Of a stretch of DNA of 64,000 nt, positions 44,230 to 49,083 are shown piece after piece. The DNA is from Isosphaeraceae bacterium (GTDB lineage: Bacteria > Planctomycetota > Planctomycetia > Isosphaerales > Isosphaeraceae). The translations under genes were made by a program, and so were the position numbers. The notes beneath the pieces are model-generated. The model was not told where the DNA came from. It ran no database searches and worked only from the letters and a program-made list of their open reading frames with translations. Where the stretch lies: NCBI GenBank assembly GCA_031291845.1, contig JARLIH010000110.1:1-64000 (forward strand), written 5' to 3'. Position 1 is the stretch's first letter. The number at the start of each line of letters is the position of its first letter.

Positions 44230-44258
44230 CTCGTCGTAACCTTGCCGTGGAGGCTATG

Positions 44259-44849
44259 ATGACCACCAACGTATTGGAGCTCCCCACTCTCGTTCTGAAC
44301 CGGCAGTGGCAACCGATCCACGTCACGACCGTCGTGCGGGCGCTCGTGATGCTCTGGAATGAGACGGCGAAGGTCGTCGAGCCCGACGAGTTCCGGCTCT
44401 ACGACTGGGAGGCGTGGGCCGAGCTCGAGCCGGCCGAGGGCGCGCCCTGTGTGCGGGCCGCGCGGCTGCGGCTGCGGGTCCCGGAAGTCGTGAGCCTGGC
44501 CCACTATGACCGGCTCCCGAGCACGGCCGTCACCTTCAGCCGGCGCAACGTTGCGAAGCGCGACCACCACACGTGCCAGTACTGCGGCACCCAGCCGGGA
44601 GGCGAGTCGATCACCGTCGACCACGTCGTGCCGCGGTCGCAGGGTGGGGCGTCGAGCTGGACCAACTGCGTCGCCGCGTGCGTGGAGTGTAATGCCCGCA
44701 AGGCCGACCGCACCCCCGAGCAGGCCGGGATGCGCCTGCGCAAGCGCCCCGTCCGGCCCGAATGGAAGCCGTTTTACGCCGCCCAGGGGGCCCGCGTCTC
44801 GAGCTGGGCCAGGTTCATGGCCCACGAGCCGGCCCTGGTCACGGCCTGA
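44259..44849 (+). CDS. HNH endonuclease
   Basis: This 196-residue protein has an HNH module at about 105-155: zinc pair CQYC, then VDHVVPRSQGG (catalytic DH), the central Asn in WTNCV, and a second zinc pair CVECN followed by ARK. The N-terminal 90 residues (LNRQWQPIHVTTVVRALVMLWN) are the domain usual for this bacterial HNH group. Starts at 44256 and 44259 are both ATG; 44259 fits the GGAGG site better. It begins about 30 bases after the last tRNA of the array, so it may share its transcript. The DNA or RNA target is unknown. It could be a stand-alone housekeeping HNH or part of a mobile tRNA island. Confidence 0.88.
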   Translation: MTTNVLELPTLVLNRQWQPIHVTTVVRALVMLWNETAKVVEPDEFRLYDWEAWAELEPAEGAPCVRAARLRLRVPEVVSLAHYDRLPSTAVTFSRRNVAKRDHHTCQYCGTQPGGESITVDHVVPRSQGGASSWTNCVAACVECNARKADRTPEQAGMRLRKRPVRPEWKPFYAAQGARVSSWARFMAHEPALVTA

Positions 44850-44964: not shown

Positions 44965-45399
44965 CTACCAGTTTGGCGGGAGTCGATAGAAAAAGGCACA
45001 AAGGTGGTCTCTGGAAGCATCAATGGAAATCGGATGTCCAATATCCTCTCTCTCGTGGATGAGATCATTGCGGTACTCTCGGACCAAGTGGGCGTCCTCG
45101 ATCAGTTGGTTTGGAATCCCAAGCCTCGCAGCCAAGCCGTTAAGGAGGTCTTCCGTCTTCGGGTGGGTGCTCCTGATCGTTTCCCAGTACATGCGTAGTC
45201 CGGTCTCGAATTCGGCAATGAGAAGTATCGTATAAGTGGCTTCCAGCATGCCCGACGCCCGAGCGATATCACGATACTTGAAATCAGTCTTGATAAGCTG
45301 AGCGTTCTCCATCAATCGATCGAATGCGTAGCGAGCGATCCGATAATCCAACTCTACCGTTTTGATCCTCGAATTCCATTCGAATCTCTTAAGCGGCAT
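44965..45399 (-). CDS. HEPN-like protein (possible RNase toxin)
   Basis: This 144-residue, mostly helical protein carries RNDLIH at 110-115, which fits the R-x4-6-H catalytic motif of HEPN ribonucleases, including the usual polar residue after Arg. A helix with acidic residues (LIAEFETGLRMYWETI, about 60-75) precedes it, as in the HEPN fold. Its start overlaps the end of the upstream gene by 11 bases, so the two are co-translated, like many two-gene toxin modules. Known HEPN toxins cut tRNAs or mRNA. The location between two tRNA groups is suggestive. Fold and activity are inference. Confidence 0.5.
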   Translation of the reverse strand: MPLKRFEWNSRIKTVELDYRIARYAFDRLMENAQLIKTDFKYRDIARASGMLEATYTILLIAEFETGLRMYWETIRSTHPKTEDLLNGLAARLGIPNQLIEDAHLVREYRNDLIHEREDIGHPISIDASRDHLCAFFYRLPPNW

Positions 45400-45838
45400 G
45401 CTGCCTCATCTCCTCGAGGACCTCGTTGAGGGCGTCCTTGGAGAGCGGCTTGGAGTCGGCTTCCCGGATCGTGGCGACGGCCTTCTGGTCGTGAGACAGA
45501 GAGTGCAGGTTCCACTCCCCACCATAGTAGTAAAGGCTCGCAATGTCGTCGTAAGTCGGCATCAGATAGAGATCGACAACTCCATCTGCGCCCGGCGCAG
45601 AACGCGCGACCGGTTCGAGCAGTACCGGAGTGGTGTCTTTCTGCATGAGAAGAGCAACGGCCAGATATGACCCGATTTCAGAGTCGCGCAGCTTCTTGTC
45701 GATGCGCCTCGTGAACCAGCCGAGTTCCTTGGCCCAGCCTTCCACCTGATCAACCAGGGTCGTGAGCCGGCCCAGCCACTCATCGCGCAGGTCTGCCGAC
45801 TCTTCGGCGGGTCGCTCCGGTGCATTGGCAGAAGACAT
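45389..45838 (-). CDS. Unknown protein upstream of the HEPN-like gene
   Basis: This 149-residue protein starts at an ATG with AGGAGG nine bases upstream. It is acidic, with a helical N-terminal half (LVDQVEGWAKELGWFTRRIDKKL) and a beta-rich middle (YLAVALLMQKDTTPVLLEPVAR, GVVDLYLMPTYDDIASLYYY). It lacks the GSxxRG motif of MNT nucleotidyltransferases that commonly partner HEPN toxins. I do not recognise the family. As the first gene of a two-gene operon with the HEPN-like protein, it could be an antitoxin or regulator, but this is only positional inference. Confidence 0.7.
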   Translation of the reverse strand: MSSANAPERPAEESADLRDEWLGRLTTLVDQVEGWAKELGWFTRRIDKKLRDSEIGSYLAVALLMQKDTTPVLLEPVARSAPGADGVVDLYLMPTYDDIASLYYYGGEWNLHSLSHDQKAVATIREADSKPLSKDALNEVLEEMRQHAA

Positions 45839-46577: not shown

Positions 46578-46581
46578 CTGT

Positions 46582-46645
46582 CCCCAACTGCCGGCTCGGA
46601 TTACATGTACGAGAGGAACGTATCTGGGCCTGTCCTTCGTTGGGG
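46582..46645 (+). ncRNA. Candidate mini Y RNA (Ro-binding-stem-like hairpin)
   Basis: CCCCAAC (46582-46588) pairs perfectly with GTTGGGG (46639-46645). Next comes an internal loop with TGCC on one side and TTC on the other, then GG-CC. This internal-loop arrangement is the same as in the two larger candidates at 46935 and 47076. The inner part has a small CTCG..CGAG hairpin and no tRNA-like module. It may be a minimal Ro ligand or a relic. Confidence 0.5.
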
Positions 46646-46866
46646 GCTCGACCCAGCCTGGCTGCCCGCTGGGAGTACACGATGACGGTCCTAAGGCAGC
46701 GATGCCGGGCGACCGGCGGAGCGAGCTTCCCGAGTCTCTCCGAGAAACGGGCCGCGTGCCAGCGGTCGGACCTTCGCACAAACGAAGGCTGATGCGGGCG
46801 GCCGTGGGATTCTTTCCCGCTCTCGGCGAACCTTCGCCGGGCTGATCTTGTCGATCAAATCGTGTA

Positions 46867-46913
46867 GGGCCGGCCATTGCGGGCCGCGAGATCCGGCCGG
46901 CAATGGCCGGCCC
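46867..46913. repeat. GCCGGC-type palindrome, 14-bp arms
   Basis: The arms 46867-46880 and 46900-46913 are perfect reverse complements (GGGCCGGCCATTGC / GCAATGGCCGGCCC) with a 19-base loop. It is the same repeat family as at 38224 and 57813, here inserted between Y-RNA candidates. Confidence 0.8.
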
Positions 46914-46934
46914 GACAATCTGGACCTTCCCGAA

Positions 46935-47068
46935 ACAAGGCCGACTGCCGGTTGGAGTCCATGCCTGAAAGCAGGAGGTTGTGGGTTCGAGTCCCGCCGG
47001 CGCTGCGAGGTGCCGTAGCTCAATGGTAGAGCGCCAAAAAGCTCTGGCCAATCCTTCGTCGGTCTTGT
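46935..47068 (+). ncRNA. YrlA-type Y RNA with permuted tRNA-like module
   Basis: The ends form an 11-bp helix (46935-46945 with 47058-47068, one G-U). Inside are the TGCC/TTC internal loop and a second helix, GGTTGG/CCAATCC. The centre is a tRNA in permuted order: T-arm GTGGG-TTCGAGT-CCCGC (46981-46997), acceptor 3' strand CGGCGCT, GCGA tetraloop (47005-47008), acceptor 5' strand GGTGCCG, bases TA, then D-arm GCTC-AATGGTA-GAGC (47018-47032). Acceptor strands pair over 7 bp. YrlA RNAs, known partners of bacterial Ro proteins, have exactly this plan. The TROVE gene starts about 400 bases downstream. Confidence 0.85.
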
Positions 47069-47075
47069 CCGAAAC

Positions 47076-47181
47076 ATGCTCGACTGCCGGTGTGGAGTCC
47101 ATGGCTTATCGAGTTCGACTCTCGACCGGCCCGCTCTGGTTCGATCGGGCCGGAAACTCTGCCCAACACTTCGTCGAGCAT
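47076..47181 (+). ncRNA. Second Y RNA candidate with partial tRNA-like module
   Basis: ATGCTCGAC (47076-47084) pairs perfectly with GTCGAGCAT (47173-47181). The TGCCG/TTC internal loop and a TGTGG/CCAACA helix follow, as in the first copy. Inside are a perfect T-arm TCGAG-TTCGACT-CTCGA (47109-47125) and a perfect 7-bp acceptor-like helix CCGGCCC/GGGCCGG, capped by a 14-base loop instead of a GNRA tetraloop. No D-arm follows. It is 7 bases after the first candidate, so the two are probably co-transcribed. Confidence 0.72.
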
Positions 47182-47463
47182 TCTTGAATTCATGCAAATC
47201 CGGTGAAGTCTTCCCGACCACCGGCCTTCTTGGTGTGAGCCCGATGACCCGAACGCGACCGATTCTGCGGCGTCCGTTCCTCCGTGACCCACCGCGGCGC
47301 GGCTCACACCGTCACGAACCTCTGCCCGAATCTTCGTTGCGCGCGGCAACGGGCCGCGTCCCAACTGCCCGAGCGGAGTCCATCGCCATCTCGAACGCCA
47401 GGGAGCGTGCGCCCCCGGTTTGAGACGGACGATCGCACTCCGCACAGTGAAGGAGGTGACCCC

Positions 47464-49083
47464 ATGGCCAACAAGAGCTTGTTCTCCAGCGCGCAAACCC
47501 TGCTGCCCCGCGCGGATACGGTGAACATGGAAGGCGCCCGCGCCTACGCGCTGCCCCCGAAGCACGCGCTGGCCCAGCTTGCGGCGACCGGCTGCTTTGG
47601 CGGGACCTTCTACGCGGGCGCCGAGGCCCAGTTGGCCAACCTCCTGTCGCTGGCCGAGCAGGTCGAGGACAACGTCTTCCTGGCGAAGCTCGCTGTGTAC
47701 AGCCGTGAGAAGGCGTTCCTGAAGGACATGCCGGCGGCGTTGCTGCTCGTGCTCTCGCGGCGCGACCGGGCGCTGTTCCACCAGGTGTTCGACCGGGTCG
47801 TCGACAACGGGCGCGTCCTGCGCACGTTGTTCCAGATGCTGCGCTCCGGGCAGTTCGGCCGCAAGAGCCTGTCGTACTCGGTGCAGCGCGCCTTCCAGCG
47901 CTGGCTGAACGAGGCGTCGGTGAGCCGCCTGCTCGCCGCGTCGATCGGGCACGACCCGAGCCTGCGCGACGTCCTGCGCCTGGCGCGGCCCACGCCGCCC
48001 GACAACGCGCGCCGGGCGTTGTTCGGCTGGTTGACCGACAAGCCGGTCGATCGCTGGGCGCCGGCGACGGCCGATGACCTGCCGGACGAGGTCCGCGCCC
48101 TCAAGGCTTACCGAGAGGCCGCGACCGAGGCAGCGCAGGCCGCCGTGCTGGCCGAGTCGCGGTTCCGCTGGGACCTGCTCGCCGACGCGGCCAAGGGACC
48201 GCTCGTCTGGAAGGCGATCGCCCGGCAGATGGGTCCGCAGGCCCTGCGCATGAACCTGAACACGCTGCGCCGGCACGGTGTCCTCGATGACGCCGAGTTG
48301 GTCGACCATGTCGCGGGTCGCCTCGCCGACGCGGACGAGATCCGTTCGTCGCGGCAGTTTCCGTACCAGTACCTCGCCGCGTACCTGAATGCCGGGGACG
48401 ACGTTCCGCAGGCGCTCAAGGCCGCGCTGGGGGAGGCCGCGGAAACGGCGTGCGGCAACGTCCCCGAGTTGGCGGGTCCGGTCGTGATCGGGGTCGACGT
48501 TTCGGGCTCGATGCAGTCACCCATCACGGGGCACCGCGGCGCGGGCTCCACGACGAAGGTGCGGTGCGTGGACGTCGCGGCTCTGTTTGCGGCGGCCATC
48601 CTGCGCCGCAATCCCGACAGCCTGATCGTTCCGTTCGACGACCGGGCACACCAGGCGCAGGTCGACCCGGGGGATGCGATCCTCAGCTTGGCAGCTCGCC
48701 TGGCGGAGTACGGCGGCGGCGGGACTGACTGCTCCCTTCCGCTCGCTGAGGCGAACCGTGCGCACCGCGACCGCAAGTTCGCCGGCTGCGTTCTGGTCAG
48801 CGACAACCAGAGCTGGGTCGGCGATGGCCTGTACGGCTCGACAGCCGTCATGACCGCGTGGCAGGAGTTCGTGAAGAACCAGGTTCGGCTGCACGGTCGC
48901 GAATTCACCGGCCCCAAGCTGGTGTGCATCGACTTGCAGCCCTACGGCTCGACGCAGGCTCCCGAACGCTCGGACATCCTCAACGTCGGCGGCTTCAGCG
49001 ACGCCGTGTTCTCCGTGGTCGTGTCGTTCCTGGGGGACGGCCCCGCGCGGTTCGTCGCGGAGGTCGAGTCGGTCGTCTTGTAG
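47464..49083 (+). CDS. TROVE/Ro60-family RNA-binding protein (Rsr-like)
   Basis: This 539-residue protein starts at [15 protein letters not shown], with AAGGAGGTG well placed upstream. The N-terminal TROVE domain (about 25-330, helical repeats; [39 protein letters not shown]) would form a ring that holds RNA ends. The C-terminal vWA-like domain (about 340-539) has the metal-site motif DVSGSMQ plus GGTDCSLP. The length matches bacterial Rsr and animal Ro60, which bind Y RNAs and misfolded RNAs and work with exonucleases. The Y-RNA-like genes directly upstream and the 38 tRNAs nearby support an RNA quality-control role. Confidence 0.93.

Follow-up and report, generated by a model that had tools for sequence, protein, structure and literature searches.

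In bacterial Ro systems, the tRNA-like part of the Y RNA YrlA is modified by DusA and TruB, and a Y RNA tethers the Ro60-family protein Rsr to the exonuclease PNPase (PMC8394870, PMC7790460). Genes of this kind have also been met beside clustered tRNA genes: of 29 tRNA clusters from archaea, 20 include a TROVE gene (PMC6333295), mycobacterial tRNA clusters have HNH and GOLLD alongside (PMC9569102), and "degenerate tRNA gene clusters" have been noted in planctomycetes, in a paper in which TROVE and Ro60 go unmentioned (PMC4807772). Here we present an analysis of a 64,000-nucleotide (nt) stretch of DNA, hereafter the window, from Isosphaeraceae bacterium (assembly GCA_031291845.1, contig JARLIH010000110.1, positions 1-64,000 of the forward strand). 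A scan for handles, together with covariance models, revealed at least four Y RNAs built on one common Ro-type handle in the 0.9 kb between a tRNA array and a Ro60 gene. One of them is a YrlA, a permuted mimic of tRNA, and another carries a head that very probably mimics a piece of 23S ribosomal RNA (rRNA), from helices 69 to 71 (H69-H71).

The architectures of these RNAs, their conservation, their covariation and their linkage to Ro60, taken as a whole, are best explained by a Ro60 ribonucleoprotein with several interchangeable RNAs, which we consider the likely nature of the locus. An earlier note on this DNA, made from its letters, had singled out the YrlA and overlooked the other three Y RNAs of this interval, the rRNA mimic among them. 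No description of a Y RNA cluster between a tRNA array and Ro60 was found in the literature searched.

Results

The YrlA Y RNA and its origin

The earlier note had described a T-arm, a 7-base-pair (bp) acceptor helix closed by GCGA and a D-arm, in permuted order inside an 11-bp outer helix, and direct reading found this correct to the base. The outer helix (ACAAGGCCGAC / GTCGGTCTTGT) has 11 bp with one G-U pair, and the acceptor mimic consists of CGGCGCT (46998-47004) and GGTGCCG (47009-47015), 7 bp with two G-U pairs, around the GCGA loop (47005-47008). The YrlA model of Rfam (RF02553) matched 46938-47068 over its entire length (model positions 1-114), in agreement with the class proposed in the note, at 49.7 bits and E 8.6e-10; this score is below the gathering cut-off of 69, so a default Rfam scan does not list the window YrlA. 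Other planctomycete YrlA linked to Ro60 likewise score about 43-44 bits. A covariance model of our own built from relatives (R1) scored the window YrlA, itself one of the 32 seeds, at 117.1 bits.

Comparison loci came from two scans with a Ro60 alignment, one against genome contigs, yielding 80 loci with record titles almost all from planctomycetes, and one against viral contigs, yielding a further 80. Some of the loci scored with R1, and with the model R2 introduced below, also served as model input. Covariance in homologues had been set beforehand as a test of the YrlA, and it is present. In 32 YrlA sequences aligned with MAFFT, the share of paired cells is 96.7%, against 84.7% in shuffles; both sides have changed in 18 of 28 pairs, and covariation is 0.378 against 0.156 in shuffled and at most 0.113 in slid alignments, the two controls used for covariation. 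The terminal Ro-type helix (helix 1) is paired in 97.6%, with double changes in five of its eight pairs.

Folding, also proposed as a check, gave a divided answer. The stretch 46935-47068 folds at -63.3 kcal/mol against -47.5 +/- 3.8 for shuffles (z -4.2; z-scores compare the minimum-energy fold with shuffles) and is more stable than all 200 of them, but its minimum-energy single-sequence fold is not the YrlA fold: the GCCGG of the handle pairs with the T/acceptor region. Support for the YrlA fold is drawn from the covariance models and covariation, not from single-sequence folding. We regard 46935-47068 as almost certainly a genuine YrlA-class Y RNA and permuted tRNA mimic; it is an additional member of an already known family. 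Ro60 starts 396 nt downstream of it. A YrlA (called at 60 bits or more) is present in 52 of the 64 planctomycete Ro60 loci whose upstream sequence extends for at least 1.5 kb. Most viral Ro60 loci also carry one, and in phage and viral loci it sits before or after Ro60.

The note had further proposed that this YrlA arose from a tRNA of the adjacent array, and an array tRNA-Cys does share a 22-nt match (91%) with its T/acceptor part. Half-by-half comparison gave a different picture. The T-plus-acceptor half scores 18/24 with the best array tRNA, 18/24 with the best chromosomal tRNA and 21/24 with YrlA of other species; for the acceptor-plus-D half the scores are 14, 17 and 19. Because both halves resemble other-species YrlA better than array tRNAs, the D half being closer even to chromosomal than to array tRNAs, the proposed derivation is unsupported and was rejected on these scores. 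YrlA is also present in loci with no tRNA array found upstream, such as L011 and L069. Local derivation is thus very improbable, and, to judge from sequence comparison, the window YrlA is a descendant of an old YrlA lineage and no local derivative.

A Y RNA with a permuted 23S rRNA head

The head of the Y RNA at 46654-46844 is composed of 23S segments in permuted order (Table 1). Since the 23S of the window genome is absent from its assembly, the 23S of same-family relatives served as reference. The 23S stretch matched by ATGACGGTCCTAAGGCAGCGA starts inside the H69 loop. Its longest exact match is 15 nt, with shuffled maxima of 11-15, and exact identity in ten relatives reaches 21-28 nt (28 nt in L035 and L064, 21-24 in the eight others). 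In 23S the H69 5' strand (GGCGGCCGT in the window, CGGCCGTAA in relatives) comes before the 46682 segment, but here it comes after it, and the handle takes the place of the H69 loop. In some loci (L022, L029) the hairpin in the H71 place is followed by TGAATGGCG, as in 23S. Local alignment of the whole window element to 23S is weak (56, shuffled maximum 57) owing to the swapped order and the shorter spacer; likeness to 23S was judged instead by segment matches and covariation.

For this element we built a second covariance model (R2) from 14 seeds, the window element included. It scores the window element at 123.7 bits (E 1.7e-28) and does not match genuine 23S (L172). With 14 elements aligned by MAFFT, pairing reaches 93.9% of cells, double changes are present in 24 pairs, and covariation is 0.387 against 0.175 in shuffled and at most 0.131 in slid alignments. 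A set of 35 homologues, aligned to the model and hence biased towards it, has 94.7% pairing, 31 pairs with compensatory change and a covariation of 0.472 (0.181 shuffled); in this set the swapped H69 helix is 99.4% paired, with changes from C-G to G-C and from G-C to A-U.

A 23S-like stretch could also arise with no RNA mimicry at all, as a recombined rRNA fragment or as a DNA site cut by a homing endonuclease. The I-CeuI-type site falls within the stretch, the 28-nt exact identity in two loci would suit a fragment, and many arrays contain HNH genes. Set against this, the swapped H69 strands covary, AGGAGC pairing with GTTCTT and GCTCCT in L051 and L053, and the element is kept within the Y handle across distant genomes, whereas a DNA target needs no RNA pairing. 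We consider such an origin extremely improbable. In this head the H69-H71 region is circularly permuted and the handle sits in the H69 loop, which parallels the permuted tRNA of YrlA with its handle at the anticodon arm. A Y RNA with a 23S head appears to be a so far undescribed variant of Y RNA; no report joining a Y RNA to H69 or to rRNA mimicry was found in the literature searched, whose coverage was incomplete, so an earlier description may exist.

Distribution of the rRNA mimic

The 16-base 23S core of this element (with at most two mismatches) recurs in 24 other planctomycete Ro60 loci, in all but two of them 328 to 2,302 nt upstream of Ro60 and on the same strand. It lies inside a Y handle in nearly all; the automatic pairing scan left three unframed, of which two were read by eye and one is truncated. 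Among the 64 planctomycete Ro60 loci that include 1.5 kb or more of upstream sequence, 24 have the mimic.

A survey of 119 genomes sampled from the class, with R2 at a threshold of 81 bits, gave matches in 12 (~10%), the window genome included. All 11 others encode Ro60, and in 10 of these the element is about 515-835 nt upstream of it on the same contig and strand. A stricter sequence pattern was present in 4 of 392 genomes of the phylum. Searches of viral contigs, phages and plasmids yielded no rRNA mimic, the record L091 being a planctomycete-like fragment. Support in the Ro60 tree was too low for the gain of the mimic to be dated, and many loci end at contig ends.

Other Y RNAs and the shared handle

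In each Y RNA of the window the handle is the same: a terminal and an inner helix, separated by a conserved internal loop (ACUGCC..GGAGUACAU / CUCU..CUUCGU). The heads differ, with none at 46580, the permuted 23S H69-H71 piece at 46654, a permuted tRNA at 46935 and a partial tRNA at 47076. The Rfam YrlB model (RF02565) gave no match to the short Y RNA at 46580-46647. The second YrlA-like RNA, 47076-47181, scores weakly with Rfam YrlA (18.6 bits) and at 61.2 bits with R1 (E 1.2e-12), with a fold z of -3.79. Y-type matches reach about 11 in one locus (L051). L051 belongs to strain K23_9, L053 to Stieleria sedimenti and L064 to Rhodopirellula sp. JC639, all of them cultured planctomycetes that have the cassette.

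Table 1. Coordinates of the features of the locus
Feature	Position	Strand	Evidence
Y RNA with permuted 23S H69/H71 head	46654..46844	+	R2; fold z -4.30; covariation in 14 and 35 relatives
ATGACGGTCCTAAGGCAGCGA, 20 of 21 bases of 23S	46682..46702	+	H69 3' strand and following single strand
Hairpin in H71 place (GCCGGGCGACCGGC)	46704..46717	+	helix 4: 97.1% paired, 2 pairs with double change
GGCGGCCGT, H69 5' strand	46797..46805	+	9-nt exact match at 23S offset -18; pairs with ACGGTC (helix 3)
YrlA Y RNA	46935..47068	+	RF02553 (below cut-off); R1; covariation
T-arm mimic GTGGGTTCGAGTCCCGC	46981..46997	+	RF02553 alignment; helix 3 99.4% paired (32 YrlA)
Acceptor-stem mimic closed by GCGA	46998..47015	+	helix 4: double changes in 7/7 pairs (32 YrlA)
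D-arm mimic GCTCAATGGTAGAGC	47018..47032	+	helix 5 98.4% paired (32 YrlA)
Short Y RNA, handle only, YrlB-like architecture	46580..46647	+	pairing scan; fold z -2.94; R1 34.1 bits
Further YrlA-like Y RNA with a T-arm, a long acceptor-like hairpin and no D-arm	47076..47181	+	R1; Rfam; fold
Ro60/Rsr protein, 539 aa, TROVE and Ro60 vWA domains, MIDAS motif DVSGSM	47464..49083	+	Pfam; 2NVO; sequence
tRNA array, 37 tRNAs, all 20 amino acids	41258..46578	+	ARAGORN; genome scan
HNH endonuclease gene within tRNA array	44256..44849	+	PF01844 5.3e-14

The elements might be read as a structured leader of the Ro60 mRNA rather than as separate RNAs, as they lie directly upstream on the same strand and a scan between them found nothing sigma-70-like as a promoter and no convincing terminator; planctomycete promoters lie outside the reach of that scan. 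A leader fits poorly with units that are each closed by their own handle helix, that number up to about 11 and reach up to about 2.3 kb from Ro60, and with the phage and viral loci, where YrlA may also follow the gene. Known Y RNAs, moreover, are separate RNAs. We judge the leader explanation improbable.

Some further Y-like sequences were seen. Before Ro60, 47250-47347 and 47356-47385 are unpaired Y-like 3' and 5' halves, perhaps of decayed Y RNAs, and a large palindrome (46863-46917; 24-nt arms 92% complementary, 7-nt loop) separates the rRNA-mimic Y RNA from YrlA. In a further Y class (L023:1300-1418, L053:7842-7968, L051:7987-8113, L022:9252-9373) the head combines a CCAGTGAGTCTGG hairpin, a long stem resembling a variable arm and a T-arm. 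This class may mimic a tRNA whose variable arm is long; its L051 member overlaps a weak Rfam tRNA-Sec match. In another class (L016:1466-1591, L080:7217-7340) the head is unlike both tRNA and the 23S piece. A same-family genome (L009 / L006) has Ro60, two good YrlA, a weaker third Y match and, by eye, a short Y-like element at about 2820-2865 of L006; neither a tRNA array nor an rRNA mimic was found near its Ro60.

Ro60, the tRNA array and neighbouring genes

The placing of the gene at 47464 in the Ro60 family, also made in the note, was confirmed: both the TROVE and the Ro60 vWA domain are present, with Pfam matches above cut-offs (PF25045, 2.9e-13; PF05731, 2e-8), and the nearest solved structure is that of Deinococcus Rsr (2NVO, E 2.8e-21). 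Of 45 genomes of the order, only 2 encode Ro60 of the window kind. In the window it is followed by two annotated genes, for a short-chain dehydrogenase and a photolyase.

The tRNA array forms a second set beside a scattered canonical one (42 tRNAs elsewhere in the genome were compared); its tRNAs have lower covariance scores than the canonical set and do not exceed 78% identity to the chromosomal tRNAs compared. Of the 54 planctomycete loci that extend at least 3 kb upstream of Ro60, 28 have five or more tRNAs on that side; downstream of the gene this holds for 1 of 59. All 579 upstream tRNAs share the strand of Ro60. Relatives of the HNH gene occur in 19 of the 80 planctomycete Ro60 loci, and Myxococcus phage Mx1 encodes Ro60 and has both a YrlA match and a tRNA array with HNH genes. 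Two small, overlapping minus-strand open reading frames (ORFs), 44965-45399 and 45389-45838, are also inside the window array; the first has RNDLIH, resembling the HEPN RNase motif, and neither has a Pfam match or relatives in other Ro60 loci.

Discussion

In the mechanism that we propose, Ro60 would bind the common handle, which in both mimics appears to be joined on at the side that the natural RNA turns towards the decoding centre, the anticodon arm of tRNA and the H69 loop, so that the rest of each mimic fold would be left free for recognition. The heads could then recruit to Ro60 enzymes acting on tRNA or on 23S H69-H71, such as modifying enzymes and the exonuclease PNPase. One protein might thereby take part in the surveillance or decay of tRNA and rRNA alike, while the neighbouring array would supply a second tRNA set. 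We offer this adaptor mechanism tentatively, as a proposal with somewhat less than an even chance of being right. In broader terms, bacterial Y RNAs would then mimic more than tRNA: the planctomycete Ro60 locus probably encodes a panel of Y RNAs whose heads copy different parts of the translation machinery, a permuted 23S H69-H71 among them, and Ro60 would be the platform, as adaptor or as decoy, for enzymes of tRNA and of the ribosome alike.

Several observations count against our interpretation of the locus. The binding of Ro60 to the handle is argued by analogy, and the window YrlA scores under the Rfam cut-off. In one surveyed genome (G377, L230) the rRNA-mimic element and Ro60 are on different contigs and the 3' handle is poor. 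The mimic lacks the stretch of 23S that lies between GCGA and H71 and is therefore no full copy of domain IV. The topology also varies, H69 being a local hairpin with a full loop, unswapped, in L016, L034, L035, L041, L064 and L080.

A decoy or repair function would account for some of the same features. Here the tRNA and H69-H71 heads would be uncleavable bait for ribotoxins (anticodon nucleases and 23S nucleases), the array tRNAs would replace cleaved ones, and the cassette would shield translation under attack. The 23S region between GCGA and H71, which toxins target in mycobacteria, is absent from the mimic. The mimics accompany a complete second tRNA set, and Ro60 with tRNA arrays occurs in phages and viral contigs too. 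Salmonella YrlA, in addition, is not cut by an anticodon nuclease and has been proposed as its competitor (PMC7790460). A plain decoy, on the other hand, would have no need of a Ro60 handle, the HEPN-like ORF of the array is without relatives in other loci, and no toxin gene or RNA ligase turned up beside the cassette, though no systematic search was made for these. We regard a decoy or repair function as unlikely, and prefer a Ro60 ribonucleoprotein whose RNAs can be interchanged.

If its RNA is made, the Y RNA with the 23S head extends Y RNA mimicry from tRNA to rRNA and makes the head exchangeable on a fixed Ro handle. The H69-H71 head predicts binding of enzymes that act on that part of 23S, and so bears on the purpose of Y RNA heads. 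The recurrent cassette, for its part, joins Ro60, Y RNAs and complete second tRNA sets.

Comparison with known systems

The closest described RNA is YrlA of Salmonella and other bacteria (RF02553), which has the same permuted T-arm, acceptor and D-arm on a Ro-type helix beside rsr/Ro60; the window differs in its sub-cut-off score, in having several Y RNAs per locus and in the tRNA array upstream. With YrlB (RF02565) the window shares a short, handle-only Y RNA clustered with YrlA, although this RNA is unmatched by the Rfam model. YrlB and YrlA are also found together in L008, a 1.7-kb record labelled Escherichia phage and possibly not phage DNA, in which the 3' part of Ro60 is followed by YrlB and two YrlA. 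The RNA repair operon rsr-yrlBA-rtcBA differs in that neither rtcB nor rtcA was found among the neighbouring ORFs scanned around the window Ro60, a scan that covered part of the window.

The window protein is of the kind of Rsr, which in Deinococcus radiodurans forms RYPER (Ro60-Y RNA-PNPase); the 23S-like head, found in the window, is not described for Deinococcus Y RNAs in the literature covered. The rRNA-mimicking leaders of ribosomal protein genes also copy a piece of rRNA, but the mimic of the window is permuted, is carried on a Y handle and lies beside Ro60 rather than a ribosomal protein gene.
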